A stretch of 22,256 nucleotides of DNA from a virus, in IMG/VR virus record IMGVR_UViG_3300000101_000206, positions 1 to 22,256 of that record; one strand, given 5' to 3'. This document shows positions 2,827 to 8,804 of this stretch, piece by piece (within the stretch, counting starts at the first letter, position 1; each line of letters starts with the position of its first letter). Both the position numbers and the translations under genes were made by a program. The notes beneath the pieces were generated by a model that was given only the letters and a program-made list of their open reading frames with translations, ran no database searches and was not told where the DNA came from.

Positions 2827-3142
2827 TTTTCTCCAGCGTGTTGAGCCAAGACAGAAAATCTTGGGCCTGTTCCGCCGTCAGGTCGTGCACATTCTTTACC
2901 CCGTACCGATACAACTTTTTGCGCATCGTCTCTTTGTGGCCAGCCCGTGACATTCTCAGCGCCAAGGGCTTTATGTCTTCGGTGGGTATGTCGTCTGCTT
3001 GCGGCTTGGCCGCTGCGGGGGTTGCGGCAGGCGCGGGCACGGCTGCACCAGACTGCGCTTTAAGCGCTGCTGTCAGCTTCTCAATCTCCTTGCGGAGTTC
3101 GTCGGTCGCCTCAGCGAGGTCTTTGATGACTTCTTCAAGCAT
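2816..3142 (-). CDS. Small coiled-coil protein, first gene of the replication operon
   Basis: A 108-residue protein I cannot assign to a named family. Residues about 1-30 (EEVIKDLAEATDELRKEIEKL) have a heptad pattern typical of a coiled coil. An Ala/Pro-rich linker (about 31-48) follows, then a basic C-terminal helical domain with ALRMSRAGHKETMRKKLY and DLTAEQAQDFLSWL. This layout suggests an oligomerising accessory or DNA-binding factor, but function is unknown. The stop overlaps the DUF2800 start by 11 bases, indicating translational coupling. As the promoter-proximal gene it would be made first in the early operon. The upstream ribosome binding site is weak (GGAAAA). Confidence 0.75.
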   Translation of the reverse strand: MLEEVIKDLAEATDELRKEIEKLTAALKAQSGAAVPAPAATPAAAKPQADDIPTEDIKPLALRMSRAGHKETMRKKLYRYGVKNVHDLTAEQAQDFLSWLNTLEKNDG

Positions 3143-3156
3143 TTTATGTTTTCCAT

Positions 3157-3211
3157 TTTGTGTTGCAGTGGACGTGACCCTAGTCTACGTTTCAGCACGA
3201 TGCAACACAAA
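3157..3211. promoter_or_regulatory. Divergent control region with an 11-bp inverted repeat (candidate operator pair)
   Basis: TTTGTGTTGCA at 3157-3167 is repeated as its exact reverse complement TGCAACACAAA at 3201-3211. The half-sites are 44 bases apart start to start, about four helical turns, so a bound protein could face the same side of the DNA. The region separates the minus-strand replication operon from the plus-strand DNA-binding protein and primase genes, and the right half-site abuts the ribosome binding site of the DNA-binding protein gene. Autoregulation by that protein, possibly with looping, is a reasonable inference. No convincing -10/-35 pair was found in either direction. 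Confidence 0.5.
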
Positions 3212-3222
3212 GGTGAACAAAA

Positions 3223-3402
3223 ATGCTACGCTCTAGCCAACTCGCGAAAAAACTAGGTCTTTCCAAGCAGAAGGTTGTGCAGCTTGCCAACGCTGGCGAA
3301 ATCCCATCTCTCCGTCTGCCGGGGGGCCATTACCGCTTCGACTTCAACGAAGTGGTGGAGGCGCTGCGGACGGGTGAGGTGCGTGATGATGATGAGCGTT
3401 AA
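3223..3402 (+). CDS. Excisionase/MerR-like helix-turn-helix DNA-binding protein
   Basis: A 59-residue protein beginning MLRSSQLAKKLGLSKQKVV. The winged helix-turn-helix of the HTH_17/excisionase type is clear: helices at about 4-11 and 15-24, then the wing motif LPGGHYRF at 32-39 and a final helix (NEVVEALR). The LPGGHYRF wing is a hallmark of the MerR-like/excisionase family. No integrase is present in the window, so a regulator or replication-initiation role seems likelier than excision. AAAGGTG about nine bases upstream of the ATG serves as ribosome binding site. The coding 3' end overlaps the start of the primase-helicase gene by 17 bases, so the two are likely co-translated. The inverted repeat just upstream is a plausible binding site. 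Confidence 0.82.
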   Translation: MLRSSQLAKKLGLSKQKVVQLANAGEIPSLRLPGGHYRFDFNEVVEALRTGEVRDDDER

Positions 3403-5911
3403 GTTCACATACTGTAAGAACTTCGCCAGCGCAGAAACCCGCGAGATGCGCTGGGACAAGTTCTGCCACCAGATCACGCACTCGGTGGCCTACGGCACCA
3501 AGGAAGAGAGCATCAGGCGTTCCGCTATCGTCGGTGGGCTGCGCGCCGATGAGACTGCTGGCCGTGCCGAGAACATCGCGGCCCGCACCATCGCCACGCT
3601 GGATTATGACGACTTCCCCGCAGGCACGACGCTCGACGACATCGAACTCGCCTTGTCGCTCAACTTGCACTGCTCGTTCAGCGTCTACACGACGTTCCGC
3701 CACACCCCCGACGCCCCTCGCGTCCGCGTCATGGTCCCCCTGTCTCGGTCAGTCACCCCCGAAGAATACCCGGCTGTCGTTGACGAGATCACTCAGACCA
3801 TCGGCCTCGACGGCCTCGACGAGTGTTCTTACAAGGTCAACCAGATCATGTTCCTCGCGTCACACCGCGACGGCATTGAGCCGTGGTCTATGGTCCAAGA
3901 CGGCGACCCGTGGCAAGTCCCGGACGAAATTTCGCCACAGCAGCGCGGGGGCATTGTAAAGACTGCCGACGCCTTCGCCGATCAGGCCGACGAATTTTCG
4001 TTGGCGATCCTCTCCCAGCCGCTCGACATCACCCCCGATCAAGTAGACGCGATCCTCGCAAACTACCCGGCAGAGGCTCTGGACTACGAGCAGTGGTTCC
4101 GCGTCGGCATGGCGCTGTCCCACCAGTTCGAGGGGTCGGACGAGGGCTTTGAGCGCTGGGATCGTTGGTCTGCGCTTGACACCGAGCGCTACAACCGTCG
4201 CGAGATGAAAACCAAGTGGCGCAGCTTCCGCAGGCGCGATGGCTCTTTAATGACGCAAGCACCAGTTACGATGGCGTCCGTCATTAAGGCAGCAGGCGGT
4301 CTCACGTCAAGCAGTGAGGTTTCGCCCGACAGCCCCGTCGCCCTGTCGCTCGAAGATGAGGCCACCGAGGTCAACGACCGCGCGTCCTACGCCGCTTTCA
4401 AGAAGCGCGTCCAAGCGCTTAACGAGGTGCAGCTATCCCCCGACATCCGCAGCCTGCTCGCCAAGACCGTTCACGAGGTCTACGCCAAAGACGCTGGCAT
4501 GGGCCTGCGCGAGGTCAAGGCGTCGTTCAAGCCCCTGAAGCGCCGGGGTCGGGCTGGTGGGGATGATGCCGATGACAGCGCGCAGGAGATGCCCCCGTGG
4601 CTTGAGGGGTGGGTTTACGGTGAGGCCGATTGTGTTTTCATCAACACAAAAATGTCCGACTACGCGATCAGGCGCGAGGCTTTTCGGGCCAAGTTTGATC
4701 GGATACCCGATGTCGTCGCAGCCGAGACGGACGCCGCCACCTATGCGTTGCAGATGGTCCAAATACCCACCGTCCTGCGCGGTTTATACTGGCCCGGCCA
4801 GCCCTCCATGTTCAGCGGTGACGATGGGAAGGATTACGTCAACCTTTACCACCCCAGCGGAACCAAGCCCTGCGCCTCGCTGGATCAGGACGATGACGGT
4901 CAGGCTGTGGTTGATCTCTTCGTCCAGCACGTCCGCAACACCATCGTAGATCGGCGCGAAGGCGATCTGCTCATGGATTTTCTCGCCTACGTCTACGCCA
5001 ACCCCGGCAAGCGTGTGCGCTGGGGCATGTTGCTCTGGGGTATCGAAGGTAACGGCAAGACCTACTTCTACCACGTCATGCAGAACCTGCTGGGCCGCAA
5101 CGCGACGGTCATCAACACCAGCATGGTCGAGCGACCGTTCAACGATTGGGCGGTTGGATCAAGGCTTATCGGCATTGAGGAAATAAGGATCAGCGGCACA
5201 AACAAGTGGCGCGTCTTGGACCAACTCAAGCCGATGATCTCCAACGACACCATCGCCGTCGAGCCGAAGGGGGCAGCGCGATACCACGCGCCTAACTTTG
5301 CAAGCTACCTTATGACAACCAACCACCAAGACGCCGTGCCGATCAGCGATAATGACAGACGTTACTGTGTTATCTTCACCCGTCATTACGAGCAGTCAGA
5401 CCTGTTCGAGCAGCACGGTGGGCGCGAAGAAACAGGGCGATACTTTGATCGCCTGTTTTCGGAAAGCAATCGGCGGGTAGACGCCATCGGGCGCTTTCTC
5501 TTGGATAGGGCCAAGTCGCTGTCGGCAGACTTCGATCCGCACGGGCGAGCACCCATCACCGCTGGCCTCAAAGAAATGCGCAGCGCGAATATCTCCGACG
5601 ACCGTCAGGCCGTCGAGGAGGCGCTTGAGGAATACGCCTGCGAAATCATCAGCGACAAAGTGGTGGATGTCACGCACCTGAACAGTTGTGTGCTCATGGA
5701 CGGTGGGTCGCTTCCCCAGAACAGGGTCATGGCAAACATCTTGCGGGACTTGGGGTATCGGCAGACGGCCAGAAAGCGGGTCAAGATTAAGGGCAAATTG
5801 CACCGGGTTTGGTTCCGTGGTGGAGGTGCCCAGTGCGACGGAGATGAGGCGGTTGAGGCGGTGAAGGCTTGGCACGATGGGGCGGGCGATTTTCATGACG
5901 TACCATTTTGA
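3386..5911 (+). CDS. Replicative primase-helicase: AEP-type primase, PriCT-2, SF3 helicase
   Basis: An 841-residue fusion that would prime and unwind phage DNA. N-terminal archaeo-eukaryotic primase-like domain: metal motif LDYDD with D73 and D75; a later HTPDAPRVRVMVPL segment with H106 as likely motif II; and NQIMFLAS. A PriCT-2-like domain lies at about 217-285 (DYEQWFRVGMALSHQF, GFERWDRWSA, KWRSFRRR). The C-terminal SF3/D5-like helicase has Walker A GIEGNGKT at 552-559, Walker B RLIGIEEI ending E598/E599, and the MTTNHQDAVPISDNDRRY sensor/arginine-finger region. The open frame extends upstream to 3275, but the product there lies inside the HTH gene and looks non-coding. Three ATGs occur in tandem (3386, 3389, 3392) with GAGG at 3376-3379; the first two have proper spacing. 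No other helicase or primase is visible in the window. Confidence 0.88.
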   Translation: MMMSVKFTYCKNFASAETREMRWDKFCHQITHSVAYGTKEESIRRSAIVGGLRADETAGRAENIAARTIATLDYDDFPAGTTLDDIELALSLNLHCSFSVYTTFRHTPDAPRVRVMVPLSRSVTPEEYPAVVDEITQTIGLDGLDECSYKVNQIMFLASHRDGIEPWSMVQDGDPWQVPDEISPQQRGGIVKTADAFADQADEFSLAILSQPLDITPDQVDAILANYPAEALDYEQWFRVGMALSHQFEGSDEGFERWDRWSALDTERYNRREMKTKWRSFRRRDGSLMTQAPVTMASVIKAAGGLTSSSEVSPDSPVALSLEDEATEVNDRASYAAFKKRVQALNEVQLSPDIRSLLAKTVHEVYAKDAGMGLREVKASFKPLKRRGRAGGDDADDSAQEMPPWLEGWVYGEADCVFINTKMSDYAIRREAFRAKFDRIPDVVAAETDAATYALQMVQIPTVLRGLYWPGQPSMFSGDDGKDYVNLYHPSGTKPCASLDQDDDGQAVVDLFVQHVRNTIVDRREGDLLMDFLAYVYANPGKRVRWGMLLWGIEGNGKTYFYHVMQNLLGRNATVINTSMVERPFNDWAVGSRLIGIEEIRISGTNKWRVLDQLKPMISNDTIAVEPKGAARYHAPNFASYLMTTNHQDAVPISDNDRRYCVIFTRHYEQSDLFEQHGGREETGRYFDRLFSESNRRVDAIGRFLLDRAKSLSADFDPHGRAPITAGLKEMRSANISDDRQAVEEALEEYACEIISDKVVDVTHLNSCVLMDGGSLPQNRVMANILRDLGYRQTARKRVKIKGKLHRVWFRGGGAQCDGDEAVEAVKAWHDGAGDFHDVPF

Positions 5912-5917
5912 CGGGGA

Positions 5918-5959
5918 AGTGCGGTGCTCAGTGGTGTTTTTGGCACTGAGCACCGCACT
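5918..5959 (+). other. 16-bp perfect inverted repeat after the primase-helicase gene
   Basis: AGTGCGGTGCTCAGTG at 5918-5933 pairs exactly with CACTGAGCACCGCACT at 5944-5959 around a 10-base loop, beginning six bases after the primase-helicase stop. The arms contain copies of the TGAGCAC repeat. There is no U-run directly after it (TTTTT lies in the loop), so it is not a classical intrinsic terminator. A cruciform or hairpin at an origin, or a paired operator, is possible. Confidence 0.6.
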
Positions 5960-6159
5960 GAGCACCGCCACTGAGCACCTCGCTAACCCCTTTATTTTCT
6001 TTTCTTTTTCTTCTAAAAAGAGATAAAAAGTGCTCAGTGCTCAGTAAAATGGTAATCCACATGGGTCGAGTTGAGTATGTAAAATAAATACCAAAAATGA
6101 AGTTTACACACATCCGCCGTAAAGGAGTTGAAACTACTGAGCACCGAGCACCTGAGCAC
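5924..6159. repeat. Cluster of about nine TGAGCAC/GTGCTCA iterons around a pyrimidine-rich tract (candidate origin)
   Basis: Noncoding block between the primase-helicase and DUF6378 genes. The 7-base core TGAGCAC or its complement GTGCTCA is at 5924-5930, 5947-5953, 5959-5965, 5972-5978, 6030-6036, 6037-6043, 6138-6144 and 6153-6159, with a one-mismatch copy (CGAGCAC) at 6145-6151. Several belong to a longer CACTGAGCAC unit spaced 12-13 bases apart. Between the left and middle groups lies a pyrimidine-rich tract (about 5980-6014) followed by an AT-rich purine run (6015-6030). Iterons beside an easily melted tract next to the replicative primase gene resemble a replication origin. An operator array for an early regulator is the main alternative. 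Confidence 0.6.
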
Positions 6160-6198
6160 TTTGGGCGGTGTCAAACACTCACTGGAAGGAGGGCCGAG

Positions 6199-6484: not shown

Positions 6485-6967
6485 ATGGGAAAGATTACAC
6501 AGGCGCGGATTAAACAACTCAACGAGATTGGGGAGGATGTGATTTTCGAGCGGATACTGGCCGGGAACACGGTCAAGTCGCTGCTGGCCGGATGGGGCAT
6601 GGGCTGGGGTACTTGGTATAAGTGGCTCGACAGCGAGGACGGGCGCAAAGACCGATACGATGAGGTATTGCGCAATGCGGGCCATGCCTACGCGCAACGG
6701 GCCGTGGAGACTGCGCAGAACGCGACCAACGAGAACGTCACCGTCGCAAGGCTACAGGTCGATACGGATAAGTGGATCGCCTCAAAGCTGAACAGCGCCT
6801 ACGACGTGCGCCACAAGGAGACGACCGTCACCCTGCGGGTTGAAGACCTACACAGCCAAGCGGCGGCGCTGATTAGCCAAGAGGCCGAAAGATCGGTCAT
6901 GGAGGCTGTGATCGACGCCGAGGCTGTCGAGGTTGATTCTGAGGGTGACGGGGCCGAAGAGGAGTGA
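6485..6967 (+). CDS. terS: Terminase small subunit (Sf6/HTH type)
   Basis: A 160-residue DNA-recognition subunit of the packaging motor. The N-terminal helix-turn-helix is at about 20-50 (FERILAGNTVKSLLAG, WGTWYKWLDSE). The central oligomerisation helices include YAQRAVETAQNATNENVTVARL. The typical small-terminase motif VDTDKWIASKLNSAYDVRHK is at about 92-111. The C-terminus is acidic (VEVDSEGDGAEEE), the end that usually contacts the large subunit or portal. Length and layout fit the family found in Sf6-like phages. The gene precedes the large terminase gene but is separated from it by a 414-base noncoding stretch that could contain the packaging start site. Confidence 0.82.
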   Translation: MGKITQARIKQLNEIGEDVIFERILAGNTVKSLLAGWGMGWGTWYKWLDSEDGRKDRYDEVLRNAGHAYAQRAVETAQNATNENVTVARLQVDTDKWIASKLNSAYDVRHKETTVTLRVEDLHSQAAALISQEAERSVMEAVIDAEAVEVDSEGDGAEEE

Positions 6968-7381: not shown

Positions 7382-7897
7382 ATGGAGAGATCAGCTACAA
7401 GCGCAGCGGAAAATCCGTTCTTCGCAATGGCGAAGCGTTACGGCAATGACCCGGTGCTATTCGCCCGTGAGGTTTTGGGTGTTGACCCTGACCCGTGGCA
7501 GGATGAGTTCCTCAATATCGTTGCCAACCCGAAAGAGCGGCGGATTTCTGTGCGCTCTGGCCACGGTGTGGGGAAATCGACTGCCGTCGCTATGGCCGCG
7601 ATCTGGCACCTTGCGTGGAGGGTTCCCGGCAAGGTGGTGATGACTGCCCCTACGAGTGCGCAGTTGTTCGATGCGTTGTTCGCGGAGGTTAAGCGCCTGT
7701 GCCGGGATATTAAGCCGCCGTTTCATGAGTTGTTTGAGGTCAAGGGTGATCGCATTGAGTTGCGGGGTCGCGCGGCTGATAGTTTTATCTTGCCGGACGA
7801 GCCGTGCGGAACAGCCGGAAGCGTTGGCGGGTGTTCACTCGCCGCATGTGTTGTTGATTGCGGACGAGGCGAGTGGTGTGCCGGAAGCGGTTTTTGA
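7382..7897 (+). CDS. terL: Terminase large subunit, N-terminal ATPase part (frameshifted)
   Basis: N-terminal part of the packaging motor ATPase. Residues 55-67 carry Walker A (ISVRSGHGVGKST), preceded by the adenine-binding region DPWQDEFLNIV and followed by VVMTAPTSAQLFDALFAEV. Homology-like sequence continues to about residue 137 (RGRAADSFIL). Beyond about 7793 the frame gives a poor sequence and stops at 7897, while the expected continuation (RTSRAEQPEALAG) lies in the next frame. The intact family protein would join the two, giving about 474 residues. The break needs one extra base or a +1 ribosomal shift. The ATG at 7382 has a weak ribosome binding site; a second ATG at 7427 is possible. 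Sequencing error, mutation and programmed frameshifting cannot be separated from one sequence. Confidence 0.75.
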   Translation: MERSATSAAENPFFAMAKRYGNDPVLFAREVLGVDPDPWQDEFLNIVANPKERRISVRSGHGVGKSTAVAMAAIWHLAWRVPGKVVMTAPTSAQLFDALFAEVKRLCRDIKPPFHELFEVKGDRIELRGRAADSFILPDEPCGTAGSVGGCSLAACVVDCGRGEWCAGSGF

Positions 7898-8804
7898 GTC
7901 TGCGGCGGGTTCGATGTCGGGTCATAGTGCTACGACGATCTTGACGGGGAACCCGACGCGGAACACGGGATTGTTTTACGAGACGCACAATCGGTTGTCG
8001 GATCAGTGGCGCACGATGCATGTGAGTTGCATTGATAGCCCTCGCGTGTCGGCTGATTTCGTTGATGAGATGAAGCTGCGGTATGGTGAGAATAGTCCGG
8101 CGTATCATGTGCGTGTCTTGGGTAATTTCCCCCCTGCCGAGGATGATACGGTTATTCCTGTGCATTTACTGGAGTATGCGATGGGGAATGCTGTTGAGAT
8201 TGACGAGCATACGACACCGATCTGGGGGTTGGATGTGGCCCGTCACGGGAATGACAGTAGTGTTTTGTGCAAGCGGCAGGGTCCAGTGGTGCATCCGTTG
8301 CGGACGTGGCAGGGTTTGGACTTGATGCAGTTGGTTGGGGCGGTGAAGATTGAGTATGACACGTCGCCGCCGAGCAAGCGCCCTGCGGAGATTATCGTGG
8401 ATAGTATTGGCTTGGGTGCGGGGGTGCTGGATCGCCTGCGCGAGTTGGGGATGCCTGCGCGTGGTTTGAATGTGTCTGAGCGCCCGTCGAGTCCGACGTA
8501 TCAGAATTTGCGGGCAGAGTTGTGGTTTAAGGCGAAGGAGTGGTTGGAGAACCGCGACGTGTCTTTGCCGAGGGACGATCAGCTTTACGCTGAGTTGGCT
8601 GCGCCGAGGTATAATTTTACGGCGAGCGGGAAGATTCAGGTCGAGTCGAAGGATTCGATGAAAAGGCGTGGGATGAAGTCGCCCGACCGGGCCGACGCGG
8701 TGTGTTTGAGCCTTGCGACTGACCACACGACGATGGCTTACGGCACGTCGTTTACGGGTGGCTGGAAAAAACCTTTGCGGCGCGGAATACGGGGGGTTGT
8801 GTGA
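7794..8804 (+). CDS. terL: Terminase large subunit, C-terminal ATPase/nuclease part (frameshifted)
   Basis: Continuation of the large terminase in the frame one base ahead. It begins with RTSRAEQPEALAGVHSPHV, a conserved segment just before Walker B (VLLIADEAS). A coupling motif follows (TTILTGNPTRNTG), then the RNase H-like nuclease domain: WGLDVARHGNDSSV (first Asp), EIIVDSIGLGAGVLDRL (second Asp) and SPDRADAVCLSLA (third Asp). All catalytic motifs look intact, which argues against long-term decay. No good start codon or ribosome binding site precedes this segment, so it should be translated only as part of the joined protein. Its coding strand is G+T-rich, with many TTG, GTT and GGT codons, compared with the C-rich codon use of the primase and capsid genes. 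Confidence 0.78.
   Translation, partial: RTSRAEQPEALAGVHSPHVLLIADEASGVPEAVFESAAGSMSGHSATTILTGNPTRNTGLFYETHNRLSDQWRTMHVSCIDSPRVSADFVDEMKLRYGENSPAYHVRVLGNFPPAEDDTVIPVHLLEYAMGNAVEIDEHTTPIWGLDVARHGNDSSVLCKRQGPVVHPLRTWQGLDLMQLVGAVKIEYDTSPPSKRPAEIIVDSIGLGAGVLDRLRELGMPARGLNVSERPSSPTYQNLRAELWFKAKEWLENRDVSLPRDDQLYAELAAPRYNFTASGKIQVESKDSMKRRGMKSPDRADAVCLSLATDHTTMAYGTSFTGGWKKPLRRGIRGVV

Follow-up and report, generated by a model that had tools for sequence, protein, structure and literature searches.

A candidate replication origin of iterons beside a phage primase-helicase gene and the predicted winged helix that may read it

The primase-helicase locus

The DNA analyzed here, termed the window, is the whole 22,256-nucleotide stretch of the viral record IMGVR_UViG_3300000101_000206. 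A primase-helicase of 840 amino acids is encoded on its plus strand at 3389-5911, with the start codon inferred. Pfam places PriCT_2 (PriCT-2) and DUF5906 domains in the protein, and PHROG classes it as a DNA primase. The motifs D72xD74 and S158-H159 are invariant, and the SF3-type DUF5906 helicase carries the Walker A motif GIEGNGKT. The N-terminal domain is assigned as a putative AEP on the strength of the first two motifs, which are typical of this type, and no TOPRIM match was found in the protein. The helicase part matches the structure of the NrS-1 primase-helicase (PDB 6k9c, E=1e-12).

The full-length AlphaFold model of the primase-helicase, with a mean pLDDT of 48, was unusable. The model of the C-terminal domain (CTD; residues 735-812, nucleotides 5591-5824, plus strand) is a winged helix with a mean pLDDT of 92-96 over most of the segment, in which the predicted recognition helix spans residues ~776-786 and the predicted wing residues 791-810 (nucleotides 5759-5818). 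A Foldseek search of the CTD against the PDB gave no match with E<=0.001; the top matches, all non-significant, were mostly winged-helix regulators, ORC/Cdc6 among them. A profile search of the CTD gave no match to a solved origin-binding domain.

Upstream of the primase, a small HTH_17/MerR-like protein (Pfam HTH_17, E=3.6e-10) is encoded at 3223-3402 on the plus strand, and this gene adjoins the primase in 31 of the 37 loci that have upstream flank. It overlaps the start of the primase gene, an arrangement that recalls orf56 and orf904 of pRN1. The same gene cluster holds an Enc34-type SSB and a DUF2800 nuclease. The window further encodes an Sf6-type small terminase (6485-6967, less than 350 bp after the iteron array described below), a large terminase, and a portal and capsid of SU10 type. 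Since it carries packaging and capsid genes of its own, the window is phage DNA rather than a satellite. We also note that the large terminase (7382-8804) is split over two frames, in ORFs 7382-7897 and 7656-8804 with the break near 7790, and that the corresponding parts share one frame in the relatives L021, L007, L087, and L011; the window contig may contain a sequencing error here, or the frameshift may be genuine.

The iteron array of the window

The array begins 7 bp past the primase-helicase stop codon. TGAGCAC or its complement GTGCTCA occurs in eight exact copies within 236 bp (5924-6159), and one near copy, CGAGCAC at 6145-6151 on the plus strand, differs by one mismatch. These counts, and likewise the 16-bp perfect inverted repeat, the 12-13 base spacing, and the pyrimidine-rich and AT-rich tract discussed below, are as an earlier sequence-only reading had claimed. 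The copies are not spread evenly over the window: eight of its nine exact copies lie in the array, the sole other one being at 5690-5696 within the primase gene. Dinucleotide shuffles gave an expectation of 4.0 copies for the whole 22,256 bp and ~0.04 for 236 bp. The best-scoring repeated word in the 420 bp after the primase stop is CTGAGCAC/GTGCTCAG, with a score of 47.7 against 12.4 for the best of 20 shuffles. The longer unit CACTGAGCAC occurs five times in the record, every time inside the array, while its reversed control word does not occur at all. An early shuffle test of maximal 7-mer clustering, in which repeated words went unchecked and 2 of 60 shuffles reached 7-8 copies, was dropped; the dinucleotide tests and the relatives took its place.

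The copies are arranged in three blocks. Block A (5918-5978, both strands) has iterons at 5924-5930 on the minus strand and at 5947-5953, 5959-5965, and 5972-5978 on the plus strand. Its position is kept in relatives, and it contains the 16-bp inverted repeat (5918-5933/5944-5959) and CACTGAGCAC units that start at 5944, 5956, and 5969 with a spacing of 12-13 bp. The TAACCCCTTTATTTT junction and the pyrimidine-rich tract follow at 5984-6014 on the plus strand, the tract itself covering ~5987-6014, and the AT-rich, putative melting region begins here; from 5975 to 6124, most steps of 50 bases have a GC content of only 28-34%. Block B (6030-6043) consists of two tandem minus-strand iterons (6030-6036 and 6037-6043) that are 7 bp apart, both in the opposite orientation. 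An AT-rich spacer at 6044-6134 separates it from block C; the spacer holds a weak dyad, GTATGTAAA/TTTACACAC, which is not significant in the window, and one sigma70-like match (6056-6085). Block C (6138-6159) has plus-strand iterons at 6138-6144, 6145-6151 (the near copy), and 6153-6159. A GA(G/C)TTGAAA(A) element just ahead of block C (6120-6136) is conserved in closer relatives. The array stops short of a DUF6378 gene, which likely starts at ATG 6200 with GGAGG before it. The array interval is non-coding if DUF6378 starts at this codon; a longer ORF from 6097 would cross block C.

Conservation and covariation in relatives

Relatives were gathered by primase homology and the DNA 3' of the stop codon was compared; a search of bacterial genome contigs for primase relatives returned none. 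A de novo word search after the stop codon found an array that beats all shuffles in most loci. Of 52 non-redundant loci, 44 have an array that outscores 95% of 3,368 control windows taken from the same contigs, and 14 have one that outscores 99%. In 29 of the 52 the array outscores every other window of the locus, and several loci hold other, unrelated repeats. Over the 52 loci, the iteron word reaches 18.0 per kb within the 303 bp that follow the stop, versus 0.19 per kb elsewhere. No convincing array was found directly 3' of the primase in relatives L079, L155, and L121. The cultured phages AH2, BcepNazgul, LP.1, phiAxp-2, PCA1, JS26, SS2019XI, SPN19, and Vibrio 1.017.O have similar arrays after the primase gene; FoX4, Carli, and Suzuki, also cultured, have none directly downstream of it. 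Among contigs matched by the CACTGAGCAC pair pattern, those inspected carried sparse or simple tandem repeats and were set aside, except for the true relatives L006-L008, L028, L049, and L051.

The three-block geometry recurs in the pooled relatives. Block A lies 1-75 nt after the stop and reads minus then plus, with convergent iteron pairs in most relatives; block B is a minus-strand cluster at 91-130 nt and block C a plus-strand cluster at 205-260 nt. Orientation was fixed by block C, which leaves the relative orientations of A and B as the independent findings. Average AT content is 57-80% from ~70 to 215 nt after the stop and 57-77% in the B-C spacer. Blocks A and C flank ~140 bp of AT-rich DNA, within which block B lies. 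Within one phage the iteron word is shared by all three blocks, and it differs between lineages, the lineage-specific words including TGAGCACC, TGGGCACC, TGCGCACC, TTGCGCCCC, TTCGGGGCC, CTGTCCC, GGTCTCA, AGGGCC, TGGTCTCA, and TAGGGACT, among others.

Further elements recur beside the iterons. A CTAACC(C/T)TTTATTTT-like junction after the last block A iteron (5980-6014 in the window) is found in many lineages, even with a different word, and is possibly where melting or first priming takes place. Relatives L009, L019, L102, and L104 carry, ~130-215 nt after the stop in the AT-rich spacer, an extra dyad of the CTGTAGACT/AGTCTACAG type, which is not significant in the window and may perhaps be the site of a second protein; the inner B-C dyad is strong in L009, L019, and L102. 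In the close relative L021/L028 (94% primase identity), the sequence that separates the array from the DUF6378 gene is a different one, so that it is the primase, and not the downstream gene, that the array accompanies.

The protein that tracks the iteron word was sought by relating inter-locus iteron similarity to protein identity over 42 loci, corrected for identity of the helicase core (residues 490-720). When 165 segments along the primase-helicase were scanned (mean partial r 0.006, sd 0.164), the best three, with partial r of 0.44-0.48, overlapped residues 786-810, the predicted wing. The partial r was 0.482 for the CTD (735-812) and 0.455 for the wing (791-810), with 0/2000 permutations in each case. 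The word is not tracked by the AEP part (1-200; partial r -0.15), PriCT (-0.04), or the C-tail (813-840; -0.10). On the DNA the C-tail is nearer than the wing to the iterons and yet does not track the word, which makes physical linkage alone a poor explanation. Shared ancestry makes partial Mantel tests liberal, and the comparison was therefore repeated on 21 non-overlapping pairs, where p fell below 0.05 for the CTD and the wing (partial r 0.41, p about 0.02) and for no other segment. A stretch between PriCT and the helicase core, residues 385-489 (4541-4855 in the window), gave a partial r of 0.315 in the full set; residues 401-489 gave 0.13 in the independent pairs, which is not significant.

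This covariation suggests that the primase-helicase reads its own probable origin through the C-terminal winged helix. The sequence-only reading had named two possible initiators, the small HTH protein and the PriCT/AEP protein. The latter is favoured, as its C-terminal winged helix covaries with the word; the HTH_17 protein shows no covariation (partial r -0.06), was rejected as the iteron reader, and is probably a regulator.

Origin reading and its alternatives

In our judgment the interval 5918-6159 is best read as a replication origin recognised by the adjacent primase-helicase, with a probability of about 0.82. The layout of an origin had been proposed from the window alone; the clustering of the copies and the conservation of the layout 3' of the primase in 44 of 52 related loci support this proposal of an origin function. 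As a proposed initiator, the primase-helicase would bind the TGAGCAC iterons of all three blocks by its C-terminal winged helix, the proposed iteron-binding domain, and much of the sequence specificity would come from the wing. The ~140 bp AT-rich region would then be distorted and melted by oligomers assembled on the arrays of opposite orientation. The SF3 (DUF5906) ring could load onto the opened strands, where the AEP/PriCT domain would lay the first primers, and as the forks leave, the Enc34-type SSB and the DUF2800 nuclease would be likely helpers. The binding, melting, and helicase loading steps are modelled on precedents in other replicons.

Two indicators of origins were dropped. Cumulative GC skew is uninformative: its minimum in the window, at ~4.5-5.5 kb, is confounded by a switch of gene direction at 3.1-3.2 kb, and in three long relatives no extremum falls consistently at the array. 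A DnaA-dependent origin was rejected, as boxes are at chance level (3 with a single mismatch in the window versus 2.8 expected). One of the single-mismatch boxes is at 6053 and, by eye, is not evident there in most relatives. A literature search of limited coverage, and hence no proof of absence, found no published Casjensviridae origin.

An array of early-gene operators had been offered as the alternative from the start. The repeats would then be sites of the HTH_17 protein, or of the primase-helicase acting as a repressor, and control the downstream gene or early transcription. Operators can be short tandem and inverted repeats, the sigma70-like match lies between blocks B and C, and the gene downstream shares the strand in the window and, judging from a crude ORF count, at most loci. 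BcepNazgul and AH2 weaken this reading, as their arrays have the primase on one side and a convergent gene on the other, spanning the genome ends or next to cos, where no promoter is expected and no gene stands to be controlled. Furthermore, the iteron word does not covary with the HTH_17 protein sequence; it is absent from the divergent promoter region (3142-3223) and nearly absent elsewhere, and the downstream gene varies among relatives while the array remains beside the primase. Operators are kept as a rival, though an unlikely one.

Still less probable, in our estimation, are two further readings. The small terminase or another partner might bind the iterons and mark the DNA for packaging or partition, and the proximity of the small terminase gene in the window, as well as the position of the array within about 1 kb of a genome end or cos in several Casjensviridae, would fit such a site. 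Other genes follow the array in other loci, however; the neighbour that does not change is the primase, whose CTD the word tracks. The repeats might instead act as stems, in a terminator, an RNA element, or a cruciform origin as proposed for pRN1, and not as protein sites. The array strand does fold unusually well (DNA fold z -5.5), and both the 16-bp perfect inverted repeat and the convergent block A pairs of most relatives could form such stems. Against this, nothing terminator-like was found when an intrinsic terminator was sought at the array, and Rfam returned no family at gathering score, the sub-gathering matches being mostly animal miRNA families. Plus and minus copies are unequal in number, the unpaired copies of blocks A and C vary together with those that are paired, and base pairing would not tie the iteron word to a protein wing. 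Both readings are judged very improbable.

Comparison with known replicons

The origin reading has close precedents. In SaPI/PICI elements and SCCmec Cch2, iterons lie directly 3' of the initiator gene and are bound by the C-terminal domain of the initiator; in SaPI/PICI origins two iteron sets flank an AT-rich stretch, and the words are element-specific (PMC6092414, PMC7581432). The candidate origin described here is similar in that it lies immediately 3' of the proposed initiator gene, as with SaPI5 Rep and others of this type, also in 44 of the 52 relatives, and in that blocks A and C flank an AT-rich stretch (~140 bp, 57-80% AT). The counterpart of C-terminal iteron recognition would be the predicted winged helix that covaries with the word. 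In contrast to the helper-dependent SaPI/PICI satellites, the window phage has its own terminase, portal, and capsid genes; it also differs in its three conserved blocks, in the convergent pair of block A, and in a protein that combines AEP, PriCT-2, and DUF5906.

In P4 alpha, a single protein with a TOPRIM primase recognises repeats by a winged helix, unwinds, and primes (PMC4234260). The modelled C-terminal winged helix here may be the counterpart of the P4 one; the primase appears to be of the AEP rather than the TOPRIM type. ORF904 of pRN1 unites AEP, SF3 helicase, and winged helix, and an essential origin element is located directly 3' of its gene; a small DNA-binding protein is encoded upstream, and the 100-nt stem-loop is reported to be free of iterons, its binding motifs not having been identified (PMC4234260). 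The same three parts would be joined in one protein here, the AEP judged by motifs and the C-terminal winged helix by modelling. Unlike the stem-loop origin of pRN1, the array has explicit iterons, and its clear hairpin is the inverted pair of block A. The system would work like these and be a phage variant of the SaPI/pRN1 type, and it does not belong to the satellite class.

Two other phages bear on the comparison. A proposal for Bordetella phage BPP-1/BIP-1 has been grouped with the pRN1-type replicon (PMC4234260); no comparable array adjoins the primase stop of BPP-1. NrS-1 encodes a phage PrimPol with a hexameric SF3-type ring and a Tail domain characterized as a novel fold (PMC7102993), with no iteron array reported in the parts consulted; its helicase part (6k9c) is the homologous one. 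The NrS-1 priming motif TTTGGTTA has no exact copy in the window, and its one-mismatch copies are at chance level.

The analysis supplies a specific candidate for the origin and for its initiator in a broad group of uncultured marine phages, and likewise in cultured Casjensviridae. The organisation of PICI origins was stated to occur in no other known bacterial replicon (PMC6092414); the iteron-flanked, initiator-adjacent layout, described as unique to phage-inducible islands, is seen here in capsid-encoding phages, which bears on the source of satellite replicons. More speculatively, and at odds we would set well short of even, SU10-like marine phages and Casjensviridae may share one primase-helicase family and one origin blueprint with a changing spelling, in which iterons and wing change together and yield mutually unreadable origins. 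If true, this would amount to an exclusion or arms-race system at the origin, directed at satellites, at other phages infecting the same cell, or at nucleases that attack origins, such as Odn (PMC8263062). Origin-directed attack has been shown for the Vibrio satellite PLE (PMC8263062) and is one candidate for the driver of iteron word diversification.

Because the word varies widely within one geometry, the relatives form a natural experiment on DNA choice by a winged helix, and would, if the speculation holds, be a natural series for reading the wing-to-base recognition code. Among the wing and word pairings observed, K-R versus R-R in the wing goes with GCACC versus GCCCC in the iteron, and K-W/Y-Y/W-R goes with GGGGCC.
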